64,000 nt of DNA from assembly GCA_027532905.1 (NCBI GenBank), contig JAPZUA010000001.1, positions 583,565 to 647,564 of the forward strand. Direction: 5' to 3'. Both the position numbers and the translations under genes were made by a program. Source of the DNA: Magnetospirillum sp. Lineage in GTDB: Bacteria; Pseudomonadota; Alphaproteobacteria; CACIAM-22H2. Below, piece after piece: positions 3,323 through 22,703 of this stretch (positions are counted from its first letter, which is position 1; every line of letters starts with the position of its first letter). The notes beneath the pieces are model-generated. The model saw nothing but the letters and a program-made list of their open reading frames with translations, had not been told where the DNA came from and ran no database searches.

Positions 3323-3382
3323 CCCGCCCAAAACCCTTTGATAAAAAAGTGAATACAGGAACGGGACCGATAGACAGGCGGC
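3311..3382. repeat. Ten-base inverted repeat between rpmJ and the DedA-like gene
   Basis: GCCGCCTGTC at 3311-3320 and its perfect complement GACAGGCGGC at 3373-3382 are separated by 52 bases. The left arm overlaps the rpmJ -35 box and the right arm lies just before the DedA-like gene. It could be a two-site operator or a long-range stem. Function unknown. Confidence 0.5.
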
Positions 3383-3397
3383 ATCCCCGCCCCTAGG

Positions 3398-4051
3398 ATG
3401 CCGCCCGGCGTTGCCGAAGAACCGGTGCTTCCCCAACCCGGCGACCAGAAGAAGTCGATGATCGAGTGGATCGAAAGTCACGGCGAGTGGTTCTACCTGA
3501 TCACGTTCGTTTGGACCTTCTTCGAAGGCGAAACTTTCGTGATTTTCGCCGGTGTCGCGGCCCAGCTCGGCATTCTGCGGCTCGACTATCTGATCGCCTG
3601 CGCTTGGGTCGGCAGTTTTCTCGGTGACAATCTCTATTTCTGGCTCGGTCGGCGCTACGGCGATCGGCTGGTCGCGCGCTTTCCGCGCATCAAGCCCGGC
3701 ACGGATCTCGCCATCCTGTGGCTCAAGAAATACAATACCGGCTTCATCCTGAGTTTCCGCTTCATCTATCTCGTGCGCAATTTCAGCTCGTTTGCCTGCG
3801 GCATGAGCGGCATCTACTGGCCGCGCTTCATGCTGCTGAATTTTATCGCCGCCGGCGTGTGGGCCACGACTTTCGCCGGAGCGGGCTATCTGTTCGGCGT
3901 AGTGTTCACGGAAGCCGCTCTGCCGATCAAGATCGGCGTCTTGTGCGTGTTCGGCAGCCTGATCGGCTACGCGATCTACATGCACCGCAAAAACAAGAAG
4001 ACGACCGAAGCGCTGAAAGCGGCCGAAGCCGGAATTCCGCCGGCGCCCTAG
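3398..4051 (+). CDS. DedA / SNARE-associated family membrane protein
   Basis: A 217-residue (or 197-residue, if translation starts at the ATG at 3458) polytopic inner-membrane protein. The segment FRFIYLVRNFSSFACGMSG matches the DedA signature of an Arg-containing re-entrant stretch followed by Gly-rich helix. Several hydrophobic segments follow, and the C-terminal tail is Lys-rich and cytosolic in character. DedA proteins support lipid carrier recycling and membrane homeostasis; a precise substrate cannot be read here. The segment before residue 21 is Pro-rich and not typical, so the inner ATG is the more likely start. The gene stands alone and is convergent with the methyltransferase gene that ends at 4057. 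Confidence 0.8.
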   Translation: MPPGVAEEPVLPQPGDQKKSMIEWIESHGEWFYLITFVWTFFEGETFVIFAGVAAQLGILRLDYLIACAWVGSFLGDNLYFWLGRRYGDRLVARFPRIKPGTDLAILWLKKYNTGFILSFRFIYLVRNFSSFACGMSGIYWPRFMLLNFIAAGVWATTFAGAGYLFGVVFTEAALPIKIGVLCVFGSLIGYAIYMHRKNKKTTEALKAAEAGIPPAP

Positions 4052-4056
4052 AAACG

Positions 4057-5019
4057 CTAGGCCTTTTTGGCGGCCACGATCCGCACGACGCGCAGGTCGC
4101 CGCTGTCCATCGCCGCCAAGCGCCGCGCCCACAATTTGGCCTCGCCCATCAAAGCCTCGCCTTCAAGCGCTTCGAGCTGGCCGCGCGAAACGAGCCGGTC
4201 GATCTGCGCCCAGCCGACGAGGAGTTCGGCGCGGAACGCGGCCGTAAAATCCTCGTTGGCGGCAATCGCGAGGCCAGCCGCCTCGATCTGGGCGGCGAAC
4301 TGCGCTTGCGTCGAAAGGCGCGGGGCCGTCGCCTCGCCAAGACGATAAGCGTCGAGGGCCGCCCCGTGCGCGTCTTCGCGCGCGATCGCCCAATCGAAGA
4401 CGACGAGCTTGGCGCCCGGCTTCATGCCGTGGGCGAGGCGCGTGAGCAGCTTGGGCTTGTCCGAAATCAGCGAGAAAACGTTGCGTACGAGCACGCCGTC
4501 GTAGCGTTTGGGCTTGAAGCTGCCTTCGGCCACGTCGAGAAAGCCGATCGGGGCTTTGCTCTCGAGGCCGGCGGCACGCGACAGGGCAGCCCCGTTCTGC
4601 GCAAGCTCGAGCGACAGATCGTAGCCTTCCATCCATGCCCCGCTTGCTTGCGCAAGCGCACGCGTGCCGCCCCCGAGCCCGCAGCCGAGATCGAGGCCGA
4701 TCGCGTCGCGGGCCAGCGTCAGCGGGACCGCCAGCTTCAGCACGAAATCGACGGCACCCGGAAACGTGAAACCGTCGCCCCACACGAGTTGGGCTACCTT
4801 GATGCGTTCGCGCGACCACTGGTCTTTGACCACGACCTTGCCGGTCATTGGCGGCTTGATCGGATCGGGGTGTGCCGCCTCTTGTGCGGAAACCGGTTCG
4901 GCCTGCTGCCCTGCCGCCGCCGGCTTGTCGTATTCGTAGCCTTCCCACCAGGCATGAAGGCGCGCGCGCAATTCGGGCTTCAGGATCTTGCCCGACTCCT
5001 TTTTGGGCGGATCGGCCAT
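4057..5019 (-). CDS. SAM-dependent methyltransferase
   Basis: A 320-residue class I methyltransferase. Motif I (GLDLGCGLGGG) is at residues 108-118, and an acidic post-motif (GYDLS) follows about 24 residues later. Residues 1-80 are a Lys/Pro/Ala-rich extension without recognisable fold. The ATG at 5019 is chosen because it lies just two bases beyond the stop of the preceding gene; longer open sequence upstream overlaps that gene. It is the last gene of the tight minus-strand run that starts with the dehydratase at 8989. The methyl acceptor is unknown; the general fold resembles small-molecule (methyltransferase type 11) enzymes. Confidence 0.75.
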   Translation of the reverse strand: MADPPKKESGKILKPELRARLHAWWEGYEYDKPAAAGQQAEPVSAQEAAHPDPIKPPMTGKVVVKDQWSRERIKVAQLVWGDGFTFPGAVDFVLKLAVPLTLARDAIGLDLGCGLGGGTRALAQASGAWMEGYDLSLELAQNGAALSRAAGLESKAPIGFLDVAEGSFKPKRYDGVLVRNVFSLISDKPKLLTRLAHGMKPGAKLVVFDWAIAREDAHGAALDAYRLGEATAPRLSTQAQFAAQIEAAGLAIAANEDFTAAFRAELLVGWAQIDRLVSRGQLEALEGEALMGEAKLWARRLAAMDSGDLRVVRIVAAKKA

Positions 5020-6437: not shown

Positions 6438-7238
6438 TCAATACGGCCCCGTCGGTTTGGCGGGGGCGGCGTTCTGGCCGCGCAGGGCGGCAAGGAACTC
6501 GGTGGCGCGGCTCACCATCATGCCCATGTCCGACGCGACCGCGACGTAGCTGTAGCCCATCGCGATGAACTTGCCGACCATGTCGGGATTGGGGCCGACG
6601 ATGCCGCAGGGTTTTCCGAGCTTCCTGGCTTTGGCGGCGCACTCGGCCAAAGCGGCTTGCACGTTCGGGTGTGCGATGTCGCCCAGATGGCCCATGGCGC
6701 CCGACAGATCGCCGGGGCCGACGAACAAGGCGTCAACGCCTGGGACTGCTGCAATCTCGTCGATGCGCGATGCTGCGGCCGGCGTTTCGATCTGGCAGAT
6801 CACGCAGATCTCGGCCGACGCGTTCTTGAGATAGCCGGGTACTGTGCCGTAGCGCGAGCCGCGATGCACGGCGGCTATGCCGCGAATGCCGTCAGGCGGA
6901 TAGCGCGTGGCGGCCACCGCGCGGGCGGCTTCGTCGGCGTTTTGAATCATCGGGAACATCAGCGTCTGCGCGCCGATGTCGAGCGCACGCTTGACCGGGA
7001 CCGCGTCGTTCCAGGGGATGCGCGTCACGGCCGAGGCGCCCGTGCCGGCCACGGCCTGCAGGGAGGCGTAGGTGCGCTCCCAATCGAGCGGCACGTGCTC
7101 CATGTCGATCACGAGAAAATCGAAGCCCACACAGCCCAAGGCCTCGGCCGTGGTCGTCCCGCCCGACATGATCCAAGTGCCGACCATCGGCGGTACGCGC
7201 AGCAGGTTCTGCTTGAAGAGGTTCTTGGGCATATCCAT
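6438..7238 (-). CDS. HpcH/HpaI-type class II 2-keto-3-deoxy acid aldolase
   Basis: A 266-residue class II aldolase that cleaves 2-keto-3-deoxy sugar acids into pyruvate and an aldehyde. Expected active-site residues are visible: His48 in DMEH, Arg73 (TRIPW), metal ligands Glu151 (CQIETP) and Asp177 (VGPGDLSG). The start codon overlaps the stop of the dehydratase by four bases (ATGA), so the two are translationally coupled and probably consecutive in one pathway. With a pentonate dehydratase the products would be pyruvate and glycolaldehyde; with a hexonate they would be pyruvate and glyceraldehyde. Family certain; substrate inferred from neighbours. Confidence 0.85.
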   Translation of the reverse strand: MDMPKNLFKQNLLRVPPMVGTWIMSGGTTTAEALGCVGFDFLVIDMEHVPLDWERTYASLQAVAGTGASAVTRIPWNDAVPVKRALDIGAQTLMFPMIQNADEAARAVAATRYPPDGIRGIAAVHRGSRYGTVPGYLKNASAEICVICQIETPAAASRIDEIAAVPGVDALFVGPGDLSGAMGHLGDIAHPNVQAALAECAAKARKLGKPCGIVGPNPDMVGKFIAMGYSYVAVASDMGMMVSRATEFLAALRGQNAAPAKPTGPY

Positions 7239-8989
7239 CAGAAAATCTCCGGTTCGGGCACTGGTGCGCCCTGTTCGAGGAAATCGAAATCCGCACCGTC
7301 GTTGGCCTGGCCGATATGGCGTTCGAGCAGCACGCCGTAGCTGCGCGCATAGCGCAAGGGCGGCGGGGCCCAAGCGGCTTTGCGGCGCGCAAGCTCGGCG
7401 TCCGACACGTCGAGATGCAGGCGGCGCGCTTCGACATCGAGCTCGATGAAGTCGCCATCCTGCACGAACGCAAGCGGCCCGCCGACATGCGATTCAGGGG
7501 CGACATGCAGCACGCAAGTGCCGTAATGCGTGCCGCTCATGCGCGCGTCGGACACGCGCACCATGTCGCGCACACCCTGCGCCAAAAGTTTTTTGGGGAT
7601 TGGCAAAGCACCCCATTCGGGCATGCCAGGGCCGCCCTTGGGACCCGCACCCTGCAACACAAGCACGCTGTCGGCATCGACCGGCAAGGCGGGATCGTCG
7701 ATGCGTGCGGAGAGATCGGCGTGGTTCTTGAACACGACCGCGCGTCCGCGATGTTTGGCCAAACGCGGATCGGCGGCCGAAGCTTTGATGACCGCCCCGT
7801 CGGGAGCGAGATTGCCGCGCAGCACGGCGATGGGCGCACCCTTCGTGACAGGATTGGCAAGCGGGCGGATCACGTCGGCGTCCCACACTTTGGCGCCTGC
7901 GACGTTCTCGCCCAGCGTCTTGCCGTTGACCGTGCGGCAATCGAGGGCGAGCCGGTCCTGCAATTGCGCCAGCAAAGCGGGCAGGCCGCCTGCGAAGAAA
8001 AAATCTTCCATCAGATTGTCGCCGGCCGGGAACACGTTGGCGAGCACTTGCGTTTCACGGCCTGCCGCGTCGAACGCGTCGAGATCGAGCTTCAAGCCCG
8101 CCCGACGCGCGATGGCCACCACATGTACGACCGCATTGGTCGACCCGCCCAACGCCATTAGTGTTACGAGCGCGTTCTGCAAAGCGCTTTGCGTGAAAAT
8201 GTCGGCGGGTTTGAGGTCTTCGGCGATCATGGCGACGATGCGTTCACCCGCTGCGTGCGCCATGCGGGCATGGCCCGAATCCGACGCGGGAATCGACGAC
8301 GCCCCCGGCAGCGTGAAGCCGAGCGCTTCGGCGATCGCCGTCATGGTCGAGGCGGTCCCCATCGTGTTGCAGGTACCGATCGTGCGCGTCATGCGGCTTT
8401 CGAGTTCGATCCAATCCTCCGGGCTGATTTTGCCCGCGCGCAGCTCGTCCCAGAATTTGCGCGTGTGCGTCCCCGCCCCCACCTTCTGGCCGCGCCAGCG
8501 CGCGTTCGACATCGGGCCTGCGGGCACGTAGATCGCCGGCAAGCCCATCGAGATTGCCCCCATCAGCAGGCCCGGCGTGGTCTTGTCGCAGCCGCCGAGC
8601 AGCACGGCCCCGTCGATCGGGTGCGAACGCAAGAGCTCCTCGACCTCCATCGCCAGAAAATTCCGGTACATCATTGTGGTCGGCTTGACGATGACTTCGC
8701 CCAGCGACAGTGCCGGCAATTCGACCGGAAAGCCGCCCGCCTGCCAGATGCCGTCTTTGACCTTCTGCGCGCGTTCGCGCAGATGGATGTGGCACGGGCT
8801 CATCTCGCTCCAGGTATTGACGATCGCGACGACGGGCTTGCCCATGAAATCCTGGCGCCGGAATCCCATCTGCTGGGTGCGCTGGCGATGAGCGAAAGCG
8901 CGCATGTCGCTTGCCATGTACCAACGCGCGCTGCGCAATTGCTTCGCCGCCACCGTCTGCCCTCCCCCGGTATCGTTCGTTCGCGGCAT
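7238..8989 (-). CDS. IlvD/Edd family sugar-acid dehydratase (pentonate dehydratase-like)
   Basis: A 583-residue Fe-S dehydratase of the IlvD/Edd family. Three cluster cysteines are in place: Cys66 (SEMSPCHIHL), Cys134 (LGGCDKTTPG) and Cys207 (GTCNTMGTAST), as are GGSTNAVVH and the C-terminal MSGTHYGTCVLH segment. Overall pattern is closest to the L-arabinonate/D-xylonate dehydratase branch rather than dihydroxy-acid dehydratase. It removes water from an aldonate to give a 2-keto-3-deoxy acid, the substrate of the coupled aldolase. First gene of a minus-strand run of six tightly spaced genes; divergent from the GH31 gene with 113 bases between the starts. The exact sugar acid is inferred. Confidence 0.87.
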   Translation of the reverse strand: MPRTNDTGGGQTVAAKQLRSARWYMASDMRAFAHRQRTQQMGFRRQDFMGKPVVAIVNTWSEMSPCHIHLRERAQKVKDGIWQAGGFPVELPALSLGEVIVKPTTMMYRNFLAMEVEELLRSHPIDGAVLLGGCDKTTPGLLMGAISMGLPAIYVPAGPMSNARWRGQKVGAGTHTRKFWDELRAGKISPEDWIELESRMTRTIGTCNTMGTASTMTAIAEALGFTLPGASSIPASDSGHARMAHAAGERIVAMIAEDLKPADIFTQSALQNALVTLMALGGSTNAVVHVVAIARRAGLKLDLDAFDAAGRETQVLANVFPAGDNLMEDFFFAGGLPALLAQLQDRLALDCRTVNGKTLGENVAGAKVWDADVIRPLANPVTKGAPIAVLRGNLAPDGAVIKASAADPRLAKHRGRAVVFKNHADLSARIDDPALPVDADSVLVLQGAGPKGGPGMPEWGALPIPKKLLAQGVRDMVRVSDARMSGTHYGTCVLHVAPESHVGGPLAFVQDGDFIELDVEARRLHLDVSDAELARRKAAWAPPPLRYARSYGVLLERHIGQANDGADFDFLEQGAPVPEPEIF

Positions 8990-9102
8990 CGTAACGAGGC
9001 GCGCGGCCGGGTCCAAGGAAAACGACCGGTCGATTTTTGCGGGGCCAATGACTATTGTGGCGCCGTTGCACCCAAAAACGGTCAAGCCCTCGAGAAGCAA
9101 AC

Positions 9103-16465: not shown

Positions 16466-17020
16466 ATGCCGCGCTTTCGCGACCAATCGCTGATCCCGAC
16501 CGAAGCCGTGCGTTTGACGGCCTTGGGCGAATTGGCGCGCGCGGAAATGAGCTTGGGTGCTTTGTCGGCGGCCGTGCGCGGCTTCGTCTCCAGGCTCATG
16601 GGCCCATCGCTCGACGTTTTGGGCCTGTCGATCGAACAGCTGCGGTACGAAGACCTCGTCGAGCCGCGCGGCAAGCGGGCCGGGCCGGGGCAGAGCCTGT
16701 CGGCCGACACGGTGCTGGCCCTCACCGACAAGGGCCGCGAAAAACTGTGCGACATGCTACGCAGCCCCGTGCGGGCACCCATGACCGATCTTTCCAAGAT
16801 GGTCGTCGCCCTCAAAATGCGCTTTCTCGATCTTCTGCCCGAAGAAGATCGGGGTCCCCAAGTCGAGCAGCTCGTCGAAATGGCCGAGATGGAAATCGCC
16901 AGGCTGCAGGACCTTGCCGCACGAAACGCCGACGGTCTCTTGGGCGAATGGCTCGCGCACGACATCGGCGAAGCCATGCGTTGGCGCGACTGGTATCGCG
17001 ACCATCTGGCGAAGCTCTAA
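16466..17020 (+). CDS. PadR-like winged-helix transcriptional regulator
   Basis: A 184-residue protein. Residues 16-95 look like a winged helix: helices LTALGELARAEMS and GALSAAVRGFVSRL, a recognition-like helix, then LSLTDKGREKL-type wing with LTDKGREKLCDMLRSP. The C-terminal half is helical with W and E/L periodicity as in PadR dimerisation arms. PadR proteins usually repress a neighbouring transporter or detoxification gene. Candidate targets are the creatininase-like gene just upstream and the convergent ABC importer, whose last gene it meets tail to tail (4-base overlap). The winged helix is degenerate and the family call is moderate. Confidence 0.6.
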   Translation: MPRFRDQSLIPTEAVRLTALGELARAEMSLGALSAAVRGFVSRLMGPSLDVLGLSIEQLRYEDLVEPRGKRAGPGQSLSADTVLALTDKGREKLCDMLRSPVRAPMTDLSKMVVALKMRFLDLLPEEDRGPQVEQLVEMAEMEIARLQDLAARNADGLLGEWLAHDIGEAMRWRDWYRDHLAKL

Positions 17021-17832
17021 GGCGACGAAACGCGCGCCGGCGCATCCTTGTCCCAACCGATCGCTTCGCGCAGCGCCACGCACAGCAGCACGATCGCCAG
17101 TCCCGGCCACAGCATCAAAGTCGGTTGGTCGAACATCATCAGCCGATATTCGAACAGCATCGCCCCCCAGTCGGGCCGGCTCGAATCCGCCCCCAACCCC
17201 AGAAACGCAAGCGCCGAATACGCGATCACGATGCGCCCTATCTTGGCGCCGAGATAGGCGAGTTGGGTGTCGAGAATGGCCGGCAGCACGTGGCGGCGCA
17301 GCAGATGCGCCGAGCCCGCCCCGAGTGCGGTCGCAGCCCGAACATAGGTTTCGCCGCGCGCCCGTTCGGCAAGGCCGAAAGCCAGCAGCGCATGCGGCCC
17401 CCAAGCCCCCGCCGCCAGGGCCAATCCCACGACAAGCGTACCGTTGCCGAACATGGCGACGATCGCGATCGCCGCGACAAGGTTCGGCACCACGCTCGCG
17501 AATTCGGCCGTCCGCAGCAGGACAGCACGCGCAAATCCCTGCAGCGACGACGCCAGAATGCCCACCGCCATGCCGACGCCGATGCACACGCTCGCGACGA
17601 TCGCAACCGCCCCGAGCGTGTTTGCGAACCCGACCAAGATGCGCGACAGCACGTCGCGGCCCAAATGGTCGGTGCCCATCGGATGGGTCCACGACATGCC
17701 GACATTGCGCAGCGTCAGATCGACTGCATCCGGCGCGTAAGGCTGCCAGAGCGCAGCAACGGCGGCGAGTGCCGCGAGGCTCGCCAGCAGGGCCGGCGAA
17801 CGGCGCACGCCCGACGGCCTATGGTGCGACAT
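17017..17832 (-). CDS. ABC importer permease, DppC/NikC type
   Basis: A 271-residue inner-membrane permease. HPMGTDHLGRDVLSRIL is the hallmark of the DppC/OppC/NikC N-terminal region, and the EAA loop is ETYVRAATALGAGSAHLLRRH. It forms the channel with the adjacent DppB-type permease. Start ATG at 17832 overlaps that gene by 14 bases. It is the last gene of an operon led by a cobalamin riboswitch (20818-20983), so its expression should fall when B12 is plentiful. No ATP-binding subunit gene follows: the next gene is convergent. Substrate unknown; cobalt, a cobalt chelate or a corrinoid is suggested by the regulation. Confidence 0.87.
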   Translation of the reverse strand: MSHHRPSGVRRSPALLASLAALAAVAALWQPYAPDAVDLTLRNVGMSWTHPMGTDHLGRDVLSRILVGFANTLGAVAIVASVCIGVGMAVGILASSLQGFARAVLLRTAEFASVVPNLVAAIAIVAMFGNGTLVVGLALAAGAWGPHALLAFGLAERARGETYVRAATALGAGSAHLLRRHVLPAILDTQLAYLGAKIGRIVIAYSALAFLGLGADSSRPDWGAMLFEYRLMMFDQPTLMLWPGLAIVLLCVALREAIGWDKDAPARVSSP

Positions 17833-18751
17833 CGCAAAACCCGCCTGGTGCGACGAGGCGACGCGCCAAACGCGCCGCGAGCGAGGCCAGCAGCATCCAG
17901 GCGACCGCGACCATAAAAAACGCCTGCAGCACGAAAAAATCGCGCACCGCAATACTGTCGACGACGAACTGGCCAATGCCGGGCAGGCCGAAAACGGTTT
18001 CGACGACGGCCGTGCCCCCGACGACGGTGCCCGCCTCGGCAGCCGCCGTCGAAAGCAACCCAAGCGCTGCATAGCGTCGCCCTTGCTGGGCGACGACGCG
18101 CGCGCGCGGCGCACCGCGTGCAAGGGCGGCGCGCACATAGTCGCTGCGCGCCACCTCGCGCAGGCCCGCGCGATAGACCTGGGCGAGCGGACCCAGCACG
18201 GCCAGCGCCACTACGGCGATCGGCAGCACATAGCGCTGCGGTCCCGCCTCGAACAGCGCGATCGCGCGCAGCTCGACCGCAAATACCCAGATCAGCAGGC
18301 AGCCGAGCCAGAATCCGGGTACTGCCTGCGCGCCGAGCGTGGCCGCGTCGAGCACGCGGTCCTGCCAGCCGTGCGGGCGCGCGGCCGCCGCCTCGGCGAG
18401 CGGTCCTGCGACGCCAAGCGCCAGCGCAAACGCGCCGAACCCCACCGTCAGCGTGACCGGCAGACGTGCGGCGAATTCCTCGAAGATCGGGCGGCCGGTG
18501 CGGAAGCTTGTGCGCCAGTCGCCCGCCAAAAAATCGCCGAGCCACGCCGCATATTGTCCCGGCAAACTGCGGTCGAGGCCCCATTGCGCATGCAGGGCCG
18601 CCACGGTCGCAGGATCGGCCGCCTGGCCCTGCGCCAGCAGCAGCAGCACGGCCGGATCGCCGGGCATTGCGCGCACGATGAAAAAAGCGAGTGCCGAGGC
18701 GGCCAGCAGATGAATTGCCGCGCGCCCAACCTCGCCCAAAATGCGGCCCAA
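17819..18751 (-). CDS. ABC importer permease, DppB/NikB type
   Basis: A 310-residue permease of the DppB/NikB class. It opens with a hydrophobic helix, ALAFFIVRAMPGDPAVLL, carrying the typical PGDP motif. The EAA-type loop is ARSDYVRAALARGAPRARVV, and the C-terminal LPGIGQFVVDSIAVRDF motif is family-standard. It starts six bases after the binding-protein gene and overlaps the next permease by 14 bases. Partner permease and binding protein are encoded alongside; the two ATPases this class needs are not in the window. Under the B12 riboswitch with the rest of the operon. Confidence 0.87.
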   Translation of the reverse strand: MGRILGEVGRAAIHLLAASALAFFIVRAMPGDPAVLLLLAQGQAADPATVAALHAQWGLDRSLPGQYAAWLGDFLAGDWRTSFRTGRPIFEEFAARLPVTLTVGFGAFALALGVAGPLAEAAAARPHGWQDRVLDAATLGAQAVPGFWLGCLLIWVFAVELRAIALFEAGPQRYVLPIAVVALAVLGPLAQVYRAGLREVARSDYVRAALARGAPRARVVAQQGRRYAALGLLSTAAAEAGTVVGGTAVVETVFGLPGIGQFVVDSIAVRDFFVLQAFFMVAVAWMLLASLAARLARRLVAPGGFCDVAP

Positions 18752-18757
18752 CGCCGT

Positions 18758-20227
18758 TCAGTCGCGCGCGCGCAGATCGGCGCGCACGATGTAGTAGTCC
18801 GACGGATAGGGCACGTAGTCGGCCACGCGCGCCGACAGCCCGACATGCCAGACCGGCGTCATCAGATAGACGACGGGCGCTTGCGCGAAGACCAGCGCTT
18901 CGGTCGCGCGCACGGCTGCGATGCGCGCGGCCGGCGCGTCGGTCGTGCGCAGCCGGTCGAGGGCTGCGTCGATGCTTGCGTCGGCGATGCCGGTGAAATT
19001 GGTCGGCCCTTGGCTGCGCAGATACTGCTCGAGCACGTAGGCGCCGTCGCCGCCGGGGGCCGCATGCATCGCCCAAAAAGCCATTTCGAAGCGCTTGGCC
19101 TGCAACTGCGGCGTGATCGCCTCGCTCGTTTCGAGGCGCACGCGAAAGCCGAGCCGCTCGAGTTGGGCGCGCAAGACCGGGGCAAGTGTGACGAAATCTG
19201 GGCGTTGCGGATAGGCGGTCAGTACGAATTCGAGTGGGCGGCCGTCTTTGAAGCGCTGGCCGTTCGCTCCCGCGATCCAGCCTGCCGCGTCGAGCAGACG
19301 TGCTGCCTCAACCGGATCGGTCAGGCGCCTTTCGGGCGTCGCGAACGGGAAGAAGCGCGGATACATGCCGGTCGCGACTTCGCCGCCGCGCACCGCTTCG
19401 ACCAGCTGCGCGCGGTCGACGCCAAGATCGACAGCACGGCGCACGCGTACATCGTCGAAGGGTGCGCGCGCCGTGTTGAGAAACGCCATGTACTGGTAGG
19501 CGACCGGCGTCGATTTGACGCTGAGGCCGGCACGGCGCGCGAGCCGCGGCAGCGTTTCGACCGCAAGATTGAACGCGATGTCGATCTCCCCGCTTTCAAG
19601 GCCCAGCGCCAAGGTCTGCGTGTCGGCAACGCGCCGCACGACAACGGGCGGCCGCGCGGCCGGCACGCGATAGTGCGGATTTGGCTCGAGGCGCAGCAAT
19701 TCGCCGCGCCGATACTCGACCGCGCGATAGGGACCGGTGAAATGGAACCGTTCGCCCGCGACGCGGTAGACGACAAGCGGAAATTCGGCCAGCACGCTGT
19801 CGGCCGCAGCCAGCGGCAATTCGGTGCGCAGACGCACGGCATGCGCGCCCAGAATATCTATTTCGACGTGCCCGGTCTGCGCGCGCGCGCGCGGATTTTC
19901 GCGCGTCGAGCGCACGAACGCGTCGCGCAAGGCAGCCGCATCGAACGGGCTGCCGTCGCCGAAGCGCACGTCGTCGCGCAGCTCGATGCGCCAGGCCTCG
20001 CCGTCGCGTACCACGCTGCGCGCGAGGTTCGGCACGATGCGGCCCTCGCGGTCGACCGTGAACAAAGTTTCGGCCAGCCCGTGCGACTGCAAGGCCCAGC
20101 CCGCACTGCCCTGCGCTGGATCGAGCGATTCGGCGATGAATGTCTGCCCGACGACGACGGGCCGTTGCGCCAGGGCCGGCGCTGCGGCGACGAACGAAAG
20201 AAAAGCGAGAAAGAGCAGACGGATCAT
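18758..20227 (-). CDS. Periplasmic binding protein of peptide/nickel ABC importer (SBP family 5)
   Basis: A 489-residue family 5 solute-binding protein with a signal peptide ending ALAQ at about residue 21. Family landmarks are LDPAQ early, GLAETLFTVDREGRIVPNLA, LRDDVRFGDGSPFDA and YQYMAFLNTARAPFDDVRVRRAVDLGVDR. The pattern is nearer to NikA/CntA-type metal-chelate binders than to long oligopeptide binders, though this cannot be settled by eye. The ATG forms a 4-base overlap with the DUF1636 gene upstream, which places it in the riboswitch-controlled operon. A role in uptake of cobalt complexes or corrinoid precursors is inferred from that control. Confidence 0.85.
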   Translation of the reverse strand: MIRLLFLAFLSFVAAAPALAQRPVVVGQTFIAESLDPAQGSAGWALQSHGLAETLFTVDREGRIVPNLARSVVRDGEAWRIELRDDVRFGDGSPFDAAALRDAFVRSTRENPRARAQTGHVEIDILGAHAVRLRTELPLAAADSVLAEFPLVVYRVAGERFHFTGPYRAVEYRRGELLRLEPNPHYRVPAARPPVVVRRVADTQTLALGLESGEIDIAFNLAVETLPRLARRAGLSVKSTPVAYQYMAFLNTARAPFDDVRVRRAVDLGVDRAQLVEAVRGGEVATGMYPRFFPFATPERRLTDPVEAARLLDAAGWIAGANGQRFKDGRPLEFVLTAYPQRPDFVTLAPVLRAQLERLGFRVRLETSEAITPQLQAKRFEMAFWAMHAAPGGDGAYVLEQYLRSQGPTNFTGIADASIDAALDRLRTTDAPAARIAAVRATEALVFAQAPVVYLMTPVWHVGLSARVADYVPYPSDYYIVRADLRARD

Positions 20228-20691
20228 TTTGCGTCTCCGAATTGGGCTTCGATATGCACGGACGTATCGACCAAAGGTCCGCACCAGCCGGGCGGCGGCA
20301 CGCGCGCAAGGATGCCCGCACGCAAGGCCGCAGGACGCTCGAAGCGTTCCATGAGGCCGTCGGGACGGGCGAGGTAAAGCGCGAATGCGTCGGCGACGGC
20401 TTCTGCGTCGCGCAGTGCCACAAGGTCGCCGAACAGATAGGTGAAGCGCCCCGGTGCGCTGAACGCGACCGCACAAGGGCGTTTGCACTGGCTGATGCAG
20501 CGCACGTTACGGCGCACCGCATGCGGCGTCGCGCGCACAGCCAACGCGCGATCGACCGCTTGCGCCAGAATGGCGCCGGGCCGCGCACCCTCCGACTGGC
20601 TCCAGTCGGGCGGACGGCACAGCACACAAATGTCGAGAATCGGCGCGTCGAAAACACGCCTCGGCACAATGCCGTCGGAACAGTCGCTCAT
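20224..20691 (-). CDS. DUF1636 putative metal-binding protein
   Basis: A 155-residue protein of the DUF1636 type, usually found beside cobalamin or CobW genes. It has a thioredoxin-like-ferredoxin cysteine pattern: Cys22 and Cys25 (ICVLC), then Cys65, Cys69 and Cys73 (RCISQCKRPC), followed by FTYLFGDL. Such spacing could hold a 2Fe-2S cluster or a metal ion. It is the first gene behind the cobalamin riboswitch and is coupled to the binding-protein gene by a 4-base overlap. The link with cobalamin genes is general family knowledge; the biochemical role is undefined. Confidence 0.8.
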   Translation of the reverse strand: MSDCSDGIVPRRVFDAPILDICVLCRPPDWSQSEGARPGAILAQAVDRALAVRATPHAVRRNVRCISQCKRPCAVAFSAPGRFTYLFGDLVALRDAEAVADAFALYLARPDGLMERFERPAALRAGILARVPPPGWCGPLVDTSVHIEAQFGDAK

Positions 20692-20817
20692 TGGTCGGCC
20701 TCGCGGCAACGCAGCACGTCGTCCGCGAACCAAAGCCGCTTGGCGTCCGGTTTCCCGAACGGCCTTTTGGCTCCATCGGGGCACCCCGCCCGACGTGTAC
20801 GCGACGCGACTACACTC

Positions 20818-20983
20818 GCCGGCAGGTCTCCTGGCTTGCGGGTCTGGGCGGACGCGCCGCCTTCCCGGTTGCCCAGTGGCGAGATGACGCGCCGCTCGCC
20901 GCTTACAGTTGCGGGGGCAGCCGCAGAATCGGCGCGCAAACCGCGCCTCACTGCATTCCCTATCAATTCCCGAAGGAAACCGA
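20818..20983 (-). promoter_or_regulatory. Cobalamin (B12) riboswitch
   Basis: Read on the minus strand, the element opens with GGTTTCCTTCGGGAATTGAT and AGGGAATGC. It continues with GGCTGCCCCCGCAACTGTAA and CCACTGGGC...GGGAAGGCGG, and ends in the B12 box AGCCAGGAGACCTGCC (20836-20821). All main conserved blocks of the AdoCbl riboswitch appear in the right order. It lies directly after the DUF1826 gene stop and 127 bases before the DUF1636 start, so it should turn down the DUF1636-ABC importer operon when cobalamin is sufficient. A clear T-tract terminator is not seen in the expression platform; control may be at translation. Confidence 0.93.
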
Positions 20984-21003
20984 CGGATCGACGTTCGCAG
21001 ACG

Positions 21004-21627
21004 TCAGGCATCGGCGTCAAGCGCGCGATCGACGACAAACACGAGGCGCGGTGCGCGCGGGCTCGCGGGCGGCGAGCGGTGCACATGGCCTGCCCCCGCG
21101 CGCGCAGGATCGGCTTCGCCACGAAAAAAACCGACGGCGTAGAGCGGCAAGCGCTTCACCTTCGTCGGATCGGGTACGATGCGCCGGTTGTCGCCGCAGC
21201 CCAAGGCCGCCCTGTCGACGTCGCCGTCCTCGACATATTCCGTGCCCCCGCCGGCATAGGTCGTGATCGCCCGCAGATCGACGACGTCGATATGGAAAAA
21301 CTTGCAGCCCGGACCGACGATGCGCGCAAAGCGGAGTTTGAGGCGTGCAGCATCCGTGCGCGCGACATATGCGCGCGCAATATCGGCCATATCCGTTGCT
21401 AGCGCTGCGTCCGCGACGTGACGGGCAAGTGCGGCCGCGACGTCGTCGCGATCCGCCGGAAATTCGAACGACGGATCGGGACCGAAGCGAAGGGCCGCAA
21501 CGGCGCGACGCACAGCCTCCGCCGGGCGGCGCAGATCGACGATCGGACCGCAGGCCTGAGAGTCGCCGCGCGAAATCCCGCCGATCGCACGCATGTTCGG
21601 CGCGCATGCGCCCATCGCACCATCCAT
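21004..21627 (-). CDS. DUF1826 domain protein, Zur-linked
   Basis: A 207-residue cytosolic protein of the DUF1826 family. Members occur next to CobW-type GTPases and under Zur control in proteobacteria, and a role in zinc allocation is suspected but not proven. Recognisable stretches are the central RLKLRFARIVGPGCKFFHIDVVDLRAITTYAGGGTEY core and the Cys/His-containing GHVHRSPP near the C-terminus. GAGGAG stands before the ATG at 21627. Divergent from the CobW gene across a 116-base spacer that contains a Zur-like palindrome. Its 3' end abuts the cobalamin riboswitch. Confidence 0.78.
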   Translation of the reverse strand: MDGAMGACAPNMRAIGGISRGDSQACGPIVDLRRPAEAVRRAVAALRFGPDPSFEFPADRDDVAAALARHVADAALATDMADIARAYVARTDAARLKLRFARIVGPGCKFFHIDVVDLRAITTYAGGGTEYVEDGDVDRAALGCGDNRRIVPDPTKVKRLPLYAVGFFRGEADPARAGAGHVHRSPPASPRAPRLVFVVDRALDADA

Positions 21628-21662
21628 CGAAACGCTCCTCGGCGCCGGGCGCCTTGAAATTT

Positions 21663-21680
21663 GTTATGTTATACTATAAC
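21663..21680. promoter_or_regulatory. Zur-like operator between DUF1826 and CobW genes
   Basis: GTTATGTTATACTATAAC is an 18-base imperfect palindrome (14 of 18 positions symmetric). It resembles the proteobacterial Zur box, GTTATGTTATAACATAAC-like, and stands out in an otherwise GC-rich spacer. Its central position lets one dimer pair control both divergent genes, which are known Zur-regulon members in other bacteria. Confidence 0.75.
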
Positions 21681-21743
21681 TATCGTGGCCGCGAACAATG
21701 GTCAAGCTGCCGCGCCGCCGTCCGCGCGAAAAGGAGCGCTGAA

Positions 21744-22703
21744 ATGTCCGAAATTCCCGTCACAGTCCTGACCGGCTATCTGGGAGCCGGCAAAACCACG
21801 CTGCTCAACCGCATCCTCGGCGAAGACCACGGCAAGAAATACGCCGTCATCATCAATGAATTCGGCGAAGTCGGCATCGACAACGAAATCGTGGTCGGCG
21901 CCGACGAAGAGATATTCGAGATGAACAATGGCTGCATCTGCTGCACGGTGCGCGGCGATCTGGTGCGCATCATCGGCGGTCTAATGAAACGCGCGGGCAA
22001 GCTCGACGGCATCATCGTCGAGACGACCGGTCTTGCCGATCCGGCACCGGTCGCGCAGACGTTTTTCGTCGACGACGAGGTGCGCGCCAAGACCCGGCTC
22101 GACGCGATCGTCGCGGTTGCCGATGCGCGTTTCCTGATCGACCGGCTGGCCGACAGCCACGAAGCGGAGGAGCAGATCGGGTTTGCCGACGTGGTGCTGC
22201 TGAACAAGATCGACCTTGTCTCCCCCGCCGAACTGGCGCAAGTCGAAGCGCGGATCCGCGCGGTCAACCCCTACGCAAAGCTGCACCGAACGCAGCGAAG
22301 CGAGATTGCGCTGTCCGATATCCTCGATCGCGGGGCCTTCGACCTCGGCCGCATTCTGGCGCTCGAACCGGATTTTCTCGAAAGCGACCACGCGCACGAA
22401 CACGATGCGGCGATCGGTTCGGTCAGCGCCGTCGTGGACGGCCCCGTGGACGTCGAAAGATTCCAGAAATGGATCGGCGGCGTGCTTGCGGCACAGGGCC
22501 AGGCAATCCTTCGGTCGAAAGGGATCCTTGCAGTCGCGGGCGCCGACCAGCGTTTCGTCTTCCAAGGCGTGCACATGCTTGCCGACAGCGCATGGGGCAA
22601 GACTTGGCAGCGCAACGAGGCCCGCGTCTCGCGCCTGGTCTTTATCGGCCGCGATCTCGACGCGGCAGCGCTCAAAAGCGGCTTTGCGGCCTGTGCCGCC
22701 TAA
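21744..22703 (+). CDS. CobW/COG0523 family GTPase, probable zinc metallochaperone
   Basis: A 319-residue G3E-type GTPase. Walker A TGYLGAGKTTLL is at residues 10-21, the metal-binding CICC motif at residues 64-67, and the NKxD-type NKIDL segment near residue 154. A His-rich patch SDHAHEHD follows, and a CobW C-terminal domain closes the protein. COG0523 proteins use GTP hydrolysis to hand metal, usually zinc, to client enzymes. AAGGAG precedes the ATG. The Zur-like box upstream and the divergent DUF1826 gene argue for a ZigA-like zinc role rather than cobalamin synthesis, despite the nearby B12 riboswitch. Confidence 0.9.
   Translation: MSEIPVTVLTGYLGAGKTTLLNRILGEDHGKKYAVIINEFGEVGIDNEIVVGADEEIFEMNNGCICCTVRGDLVRIIGGLMKRAGKLDGIIVETTGLADPAPVAQTFFVDDEVRAKTRLDAIVAVADARFLIDRLADSHEAEEQIGFADVVLLNKIDLVSPAELAQVEARIRAVNPYAKLHRTQRSEIALSDILDRGAFDLGRILALEPDFLESDHAHEHDAAIGSVSAVVDGPVDVERFQKWIGGVLAAQGQAILRSKGILAVAGADQRFVFQGVHMLADSAWGKTWQRNEARVSRLVFIGRDLDAAALKSGFAACAA

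Follow-up and report, generated by a model that had tools for sequence, protein, structure and literature searches.

The window analyzed here is a 64,000-nucleotide stretch of DNA from the alphaproteobacterium Magnetospirillum sp. (contig JAPZUA010000001.1, positions 583,565 to 647,564), part of a 4.26 Mb genome in 13 contigs. It contains an operon in which a cobalamin (adenosylcobalamin, AdoCbl) riboswitch precedes genes encoding a DUF1636 protein, a family 5 periplasmic binding protein, and two permeases, PermB and PermC, of an ATP-binding cassette (ABC) importer (Table 1). All four reading frames are intact. The DUF1636 and binding-protein genes share an ATGA, six bases separate the binding-protein gene from the PermB gene, and the PermC gene starts 14 bases inside the latter. 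No ATPase gene is present in the operon or after PermC; the next gene, encoding an AphA-like regulator, is convergent and overlaps the PermC end by 4 bases. The riboswitch match spans the full model (positions 1–189) at 114.8 bits, against a gathering score of 31.5, and starts, on the minus strand, 16 bases past position 20983, the end coordinate given in an earlier note made from the sequence of the window alone. That note had described a complete B12 riboswitch before a coupled DUF1636-SBP5-DppB-DppC operon, with no ATPase and a convergent next gene, and each of these statements holds. A terminator or clear expression platform was sought in the leader between aptamer and DUF1636, and nothing significant was found.

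Table 1. Features of the importer operon and of its neighbors in the window.
Feature	Positions	Strand	Evidence
Cobalamin (AdoCbl) riboswitch aptamer, operon leader	20804-20999	(-)	RF00174 by cmscan, 114.8 bits, E 4.8e-28
Leader between aptamer and DUF1636	20692-20803	(-)	No significant single fold, z -1.12
DUF1636 protein, 155 aa	20224-20691	(-)	PF07845 95.4 bits, cut-off 31.6
SBP_bac_5 periplasmic binding protein, family 5	18758-20227	(-)	PF00496 193 bits
PermB, DppB/NikB-type permease, TTG start	17819-18751	(-)	PF00528 + PF19300
PermC, DppC/NikC-type permease, last gene of operon	17017-17832	(-)	PF00528 69.5 bits
AphA-like regulator gene, outside the system	16466-17020	(+)	PF14557 147 bits
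DUF1826, upstream neighbor, possible context only	21004-21627	(-)	PF08856 111.5 bits
COG0523 (CobW-like) GTPase open reading frame, divergent	21345-22703	(+)	PF02492 + PF07683

Related loci were collected from GTDB contigs (30 loci, with an alignment of the binding protein as query), from plasmids, and from a class-wide sample, in which the family is present in 9 of 385 alphaproteobacterial species. L- and G-numbers below are the locus and genome labels of the analysis, G000 being the host genome. The nearest binding proteins are those of a Telmatospirillum metagenome-assembled genome (MAG) (92% identical), a Rhodospirillaceae MAG (90%), and Tagaea CACIAM 22H2 (69%). The order riboswitch, first gene, binding protein, PermB, PermC is found in the Rhizobiaceae, Phyllobacteriaceae, Kaistia, Cohaesibacter, Paracoccus, Tagaea, and other Alphaproteobacteria. 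The operon is free of ATPase genes in 37 alphaproteobacterial loci (the window and 36 others, leaving out L139, whose sequence stops just after PermC), and this form is kept down to 39% identity. Immediately 5′ of the operon, a riboswitch is present in 25 of the 29 alphaproteobacterial loci tested, window included, which cover several families, and in the equivalent place in all 22 relatives obtained from the related-locus and plasmid searches. The 37 ATPase-free loci, together with the riboswitch in 25 of 29, indicate a conserved system rather than an accident, and the lack of an ATPase is thus a trait of the family. Homologues in the Firmicutes, Tissierellia, and Fusobacteria (Urinicoccus, Tissierellia, Eubacteriales, Fusobacterium, and Aerococcus) carry two ATPases in five of five cases, the first being short in Aerococcus, and have neither a B12 riboswitch (0/5) nor a ferredoxin-like gene. 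In the tree, these ATPase-bearing homologues group as a single clade (100/100).

Several loci have additional features. In L034, L043, and L060 the operon adjoins a distinct importer that has ATPases of its own, at about the frequency expected from the density of such operons. In L137 (G331:C56), PermC is followed within the operon by another binding protein of the family, diverged from the first (3358–4795), which suggests two ligands sharing one pore. The outlier is L134 (G319:C1:6500-22500, region 7049–9092), from the same family as the host, in which the binding-protein gene stands alone. It comes directly after an entire Dpp/Yej-like importer whose ATPase is fused, and it overlaps a PCuAC copper-chaperone gene at the latter's start; this arrangement is a hint that importer components are interchangeable. 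In Shinella loci L033 and L046 the operon is near two further B12 riboswitches, preceding metE and, in L033, nrdHIE, and its surroundings constitute a local B12-scarcity island.

The binding protein begins with a signal-peptide-like stretch. Its predicted structure (predicted local distance difference test, pLDDT, 87; predicted template modeling score, pTM, 0.85) resembles those of SaNikA, EcNikA, and CntA, with a template modeling (TM) score of about 0.83 to SaNikA and EcNikA, and its top relative by sequence is 3T66, the nickel-binding protein of B. halodurans. Both permeases keep an EAA-like coupling loop in their sequences. The traits of a peptide-nickel importer (ABC 3.A.1.5), namely a family 5 binding protein with a NikA-like predicted fold and a NikB/NikC-type permease pair, are therefore present. 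The nickel/peptide class proposed in the earlier note is right, though the NCBIfam equivalog cut-offs were missed (Opp5A_nikA, 213 versus 600 bits; NikB and NikC models, 218 versus 350 and 171 versus 358 bits); scores so far under the cut-offs indicate that no named subfamily fits. Nine residues of the binding protein are invariant across 30 members: His49, Tyr244, Gln245, Tyr246, Arg342, His388, Trp460, Asp477, and Tyr478.

The earlier note also called for a genome search for an orphan DppD/DppF pair that might serve the permeases. PF08352 was used to locate ATPases in the host genome, and profiles built from the homologous ATPases served for the host and four other genomes; the ATPases located were compared with the DppB-type permeases. 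No orphan pair was found in the five genomes. Seemingly lone ATPases, with no PF19300 permease beside them, proved on inspection to adjoin permeases and were mostly Yej-like fused ATPases; a second riboswitch driving ATPase genes was likewise rejected, as the host's other riboswitch leads the cob operon. By hand count over the five genomes, 12 of 105 DppB-type permeases among the matches listed lack an ATPase pair up to about 8 kb away. The operon studied here accounts for five of the 12, leaving a background of about 7 in 100 among the matches listed, and in Agrobacterium arsenijevicii and Kaistia dalseonensis it supplies the only pair-less DppB-type permease among those matches. The host genome encodes about 20 Dpp-type ATPase pairs. 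Precedents for sharing exist: FhuC of Staphylococcus aureus serves importers without their own ATPase (PMC10147376), and OppDF of Borrelia works with two permease pairs (PMC5736914). With no orphan pair and with the EAA-like loops kept, borrowing is the best explanation, and the motor is probably supplied by other Dpp/Yej importers. Two further Dpp-type sets of binding protein and permeases without their own ATPase genes occur in the host (G000:C2:594477-600724 and G000:C1:134107-136875), and borrowing may thus be more widespread there.

DUF1636 is a recurrent gene of cobalt and B12 operons. It scored above the cut-off in 26 of 190 sampled alphaproteobacterial species, giving 28 genes; cobW and cobN follow directly in 11 of these, a B12 riboswitch lies directly upstream in 12, two more adjoin CbtAB, and two adjoin FecCD/E-type genes. 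In plasmid records, DUF1636 heads cobW-cobN (Paracoccus, Acidiphilium, Phaeobacter, and Nitratireductor), a CbtJKL-like operon (Shinella PSBB067), or metE (Nostoc), and precedes cbiB in Methylibium; the riboswitch is found just 5′ of the gene at six of eight plasmid loci, including the Shinella operon. These linkages support a place for DUF1636 in cobalt/B12 biology, in line with the cobalt or corrinoid acquisition system suggested in the earlier note. The host has a single DUF1636 gene, which is in the importer operon and does not head the cob operon, and the order DUF1636-SBP-PermB-PermC recurs in two further families (G292 and G370; G331).

Five cysteines of DUF1636 are conserved (Cys22, Cys25, Cys65, Cys69, and Cys73, in 95, 97, 100, 100, and 81% of 37 aligned rows) as CX2C … CX3CX3C, the first pair being atypical for ligands of a [2Fe-2S] ferredoxin cluster. 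An AlphaFold model (pLDDT 77, from four sequences) matches 9JN8 (Foldseek E 5e-8), to which the protein is about 33% identical (phmmer E 2.6e-15). This structure is ORF378 of Rhodobacter capsulatus, deposited as a thioredoxin-like ferredoxin. The modeled fold of DUF1636 is consequently familiar rather than novel and agrees with an earlier prediction of a thioredoxin-like ferredoxin (PMC4520260). The literature searched yielded no function for the 9JN8 protein and no paper on COG5469, and the passages found on DUF1636 contain nothing on cobalt.

In the Rhizobiales and Paracoccus, the DUF1636 slot is filled by a fusion protein that joins a CbiX-like domain to a [2Fe-2S] thioredoxin-like ferredoxin. 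Across 27 aligned fusions the four ferredoxin cysteines are invariant, and other residues stand at both of the positions that are His in the CbiX of the host; a working cobaltochelatase was rejected on the latter ground. That a ferredoxin-like domain heads the importer in two unrelated arrangements argues for a common task on incoming cobalt. At the head of cob operons, it is possible that DUF1636 instead donates electrons to other B12 steps, such as CobG or cobalt reduction.

The host genome yielded just two B12 riboswitches, the second of which leads a complete aerobic B12 operon consisting of cobP, cobW, cobN, cobO, cobQ, a His-rich CbiX, and later cob genes (names assigned from reading of the translations). 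The CbiX-like protein, with its long His-rich tail (L071, 9800–11041, contig C1), sits amid this cobN-type operon, so that the two kinds of cobalt chelatase share an operon. Given the complete de novo pathway, it is cobalt, not corrinoids, that the host needs. Searches of its genome for cobalt transporters of the NicO and CbiM types found neither. Because of the aerobic B12 operon, the NikA fold of the binding protein, and the recurrence of DUF1636 in cobalt/B12 operons, including its linkage to cobW-cobN and its position heading the CbtJKL-like operon of Shinella, cobalt is the likely cargo. The earlier note had left cobalt, a cobaltophore, and a corrinoid side by side; the evidence now favors cobalt over a corrinoid.

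We consider it fairly probable that the operon specifies a cobalt importer under B12 repression, which most likely takes up the metal as a small chelate and borrows its ATPase, and whose DUF1636 protein acts on the incoming cobalt. When adenosylcobalamin is scarce, the riboswitch would permit expression, as the behavior of its family predicts; the repression that the earlier note proposed is supported on the same grounds. The NikA-like protein would then bind a cobalt species in the periplasm and pass it to the PermB/PermC pore, which may be powered by ATPase subunits of one or more other Dpp/Yej-type importers. In the cytoplasm, DUF1636 would handle the cobalt ahead of CobW and CobN, either as a redox helper freeing it from its carrier or as a relay. 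Certain proteins of the FhuF type, which contain 2Fe-2S clusters, reduce or strip ferric siderophores in the cell. By analogy, a cobaltophore-type system, in which a cobalt, perhaps Co(III), chelate is imported and then reduced or stripped by DUF1636 or by the fusion of dead CbiX and ferredoxin, is a tentative extension to which we give a low probability. No conserved chelator-biosynthesis gene was found near the operon in 32 loci.

Several observations weigh against the proposed importer model as a whole. The evidence on the ligand is all indirect, and the top solved relatives of the binding protein are nickel binders. In a low-identity alignment, the His of the SHADY segment of Brucella NikA has no His counterpart, and the invariant, clade-specific His388 lies opposite a Trp of Brucella NikA and another residue in SaNikA. 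An equivalent of the NikA His was rejected, as the position is not conserved and His388 is a different site; the ligand, or its geometry, would thus depart from that of NikA, to judge from the sequences. Four alphaproteobacterial members (G292, G370, G371, and G319) lack an upstream B12 riboswitch. CbtAB is present in the host, with no riboswitch detected on it, so the operon is not the sole predicted cobalt transporter. No specific ATPase partner could be named from sequence. The Cohaesibacter locus L059 contains no ferredoxin gene, indicating that DUF1636 or ferredoxin is not always needed in cis. The nickel-binding relatives (3T66 and SaNikA) and the four members lacking the riboswitch would suit a nickel or general peptide importer with an indirect riboswitch link. 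This is improbable given a riboswitch held in place in 25 of 29 loci across several families and a cobalt/B12-linked ferredoxin-like first gene in two unrelated forms.

Corrinoid uptake genes are also under B12 riboswitches, and family 5 binding proteins accept ligands as large as oligopeptides, so the operon might import cobamides or their precursors for salvage. We think this unlikely, since the de novo operon of the host is complete and includes cobN, the fold neighbors of the binding protein bind nickel or chelates, DUF1636 keeps company with cobW-cobN and CbtAB rather than salvage genes, and no outer-membrane receptor is among the genes conserved across the family loci. That the permeases function without an ABC ATPase, as an ATP-independent channel, secondary carrier, or sensor, would account for 37 ATPase-free operons and for the missing orphan pair in five genomes. 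However, the coupling loops are retained, the host offers about 20 Dpp-type ATPase pairs, ATPase-bearing homologues exist, and we know of no functioning importer of the binding-protein-dependent type that lacks an ATPase; this explanation is very improbable. The set is incomplete relative to the textbook five genes, as a decaying remnant that had lost its ATPases would be, but the four intact frames, the copies 92% and 90% identical in two sister MAGs, and the conservation of the same set down to 39% identity in 37 loci largely refute such decay, to which we attach almost no weight.

Upstream, the DUF1826 gene ends 5 bases short of the aptamer, and the COG0523 GTPase gene is divergent. DUF1826 and COG0523 are often linked to zinc. 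Both genes also flank the operon in Cohaesibacter L059, with DUF1826 just 5′ of the riboswitch. Of 32 family loci, 8 contain a COG0523 GTPase gene, which in Tagaea L041 is directly 3′ of PermC, and the divergent GTPase is a possible metallochaperone partner.

How cobalt is delivered to CobW and CobN in aerobic B12 producers is only partly understood. With DUF1636 now linked to both the insertion and the import of cobalt, its function can be tested directly; if the cobaltophore-type system is real, the protein would serve the aerobic B12 pathway as a general factor for cobalt release or relay. The stable absence of ATPases also offers a clean case for shared ABC motors. The operon defines an alphaproteobacterial family of predicted cobalt importers that is missing from the cobalt-transporter table of a 2021 review (PMC7689651). 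Neither the ATPase-less family nor a link between DUF1636 and cobalt was found in the literature searched, which was mostly open-access, with older B12-regulon papers and databases outside its scope.

Among known systems, the closest solved binding proteins by fold or sequence are SaNikA/Opp5A (4XKR) and the B. halodurans protein 3T66, to which identity is only 18–26%, and the host DUF1636 shares its family and Cys motifs with 9JN8. Like the S. aureus importers dependent on FhuC (SirABC, HtsABC, and IsdEF; PMC10147376), the system has no ATPase of its own; those importers, however, carry iron and belong to unrelated operons, and their borrowing has been demonstrated, whereas here it is inferred. 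CbtJKL of Sinorhizobium meliloti, a B12-regulated cobalt ABC importer (PMC7689651, PMC12239276), is likewise alphaproteobacterial and behind a B12 riboswitch, and the CbtJKL-like operon of Shinella PSBB067 is also headed by DUF1636. However, CbtJ is similar to BtuF, and the Shinella operon, of the FecCD type, includes an ATPase of its own; homology to this class was rejected, as all importer parts of the present operon are of the SBP_bac_5/Dpp class. Nearer in kind are the NikABCDE-type systems of Clostridium tetani and Desulfitobacterium hafniense, Nik/Opp-class importers under B12 riboswitches for which cobalt import has been predicted (PMC2667541). NikABCDE is a system with two ATPases, whereas the alphaproteobacterial members all lack them and are led by a ferredoxin-like gene. 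We therefore rate riboswitch-controlled Nik/Opp-class cobalt importers as already known, and the ATPase-less alphaproteobacterial form led by a ferredoxin-like gene as a new variation on them.

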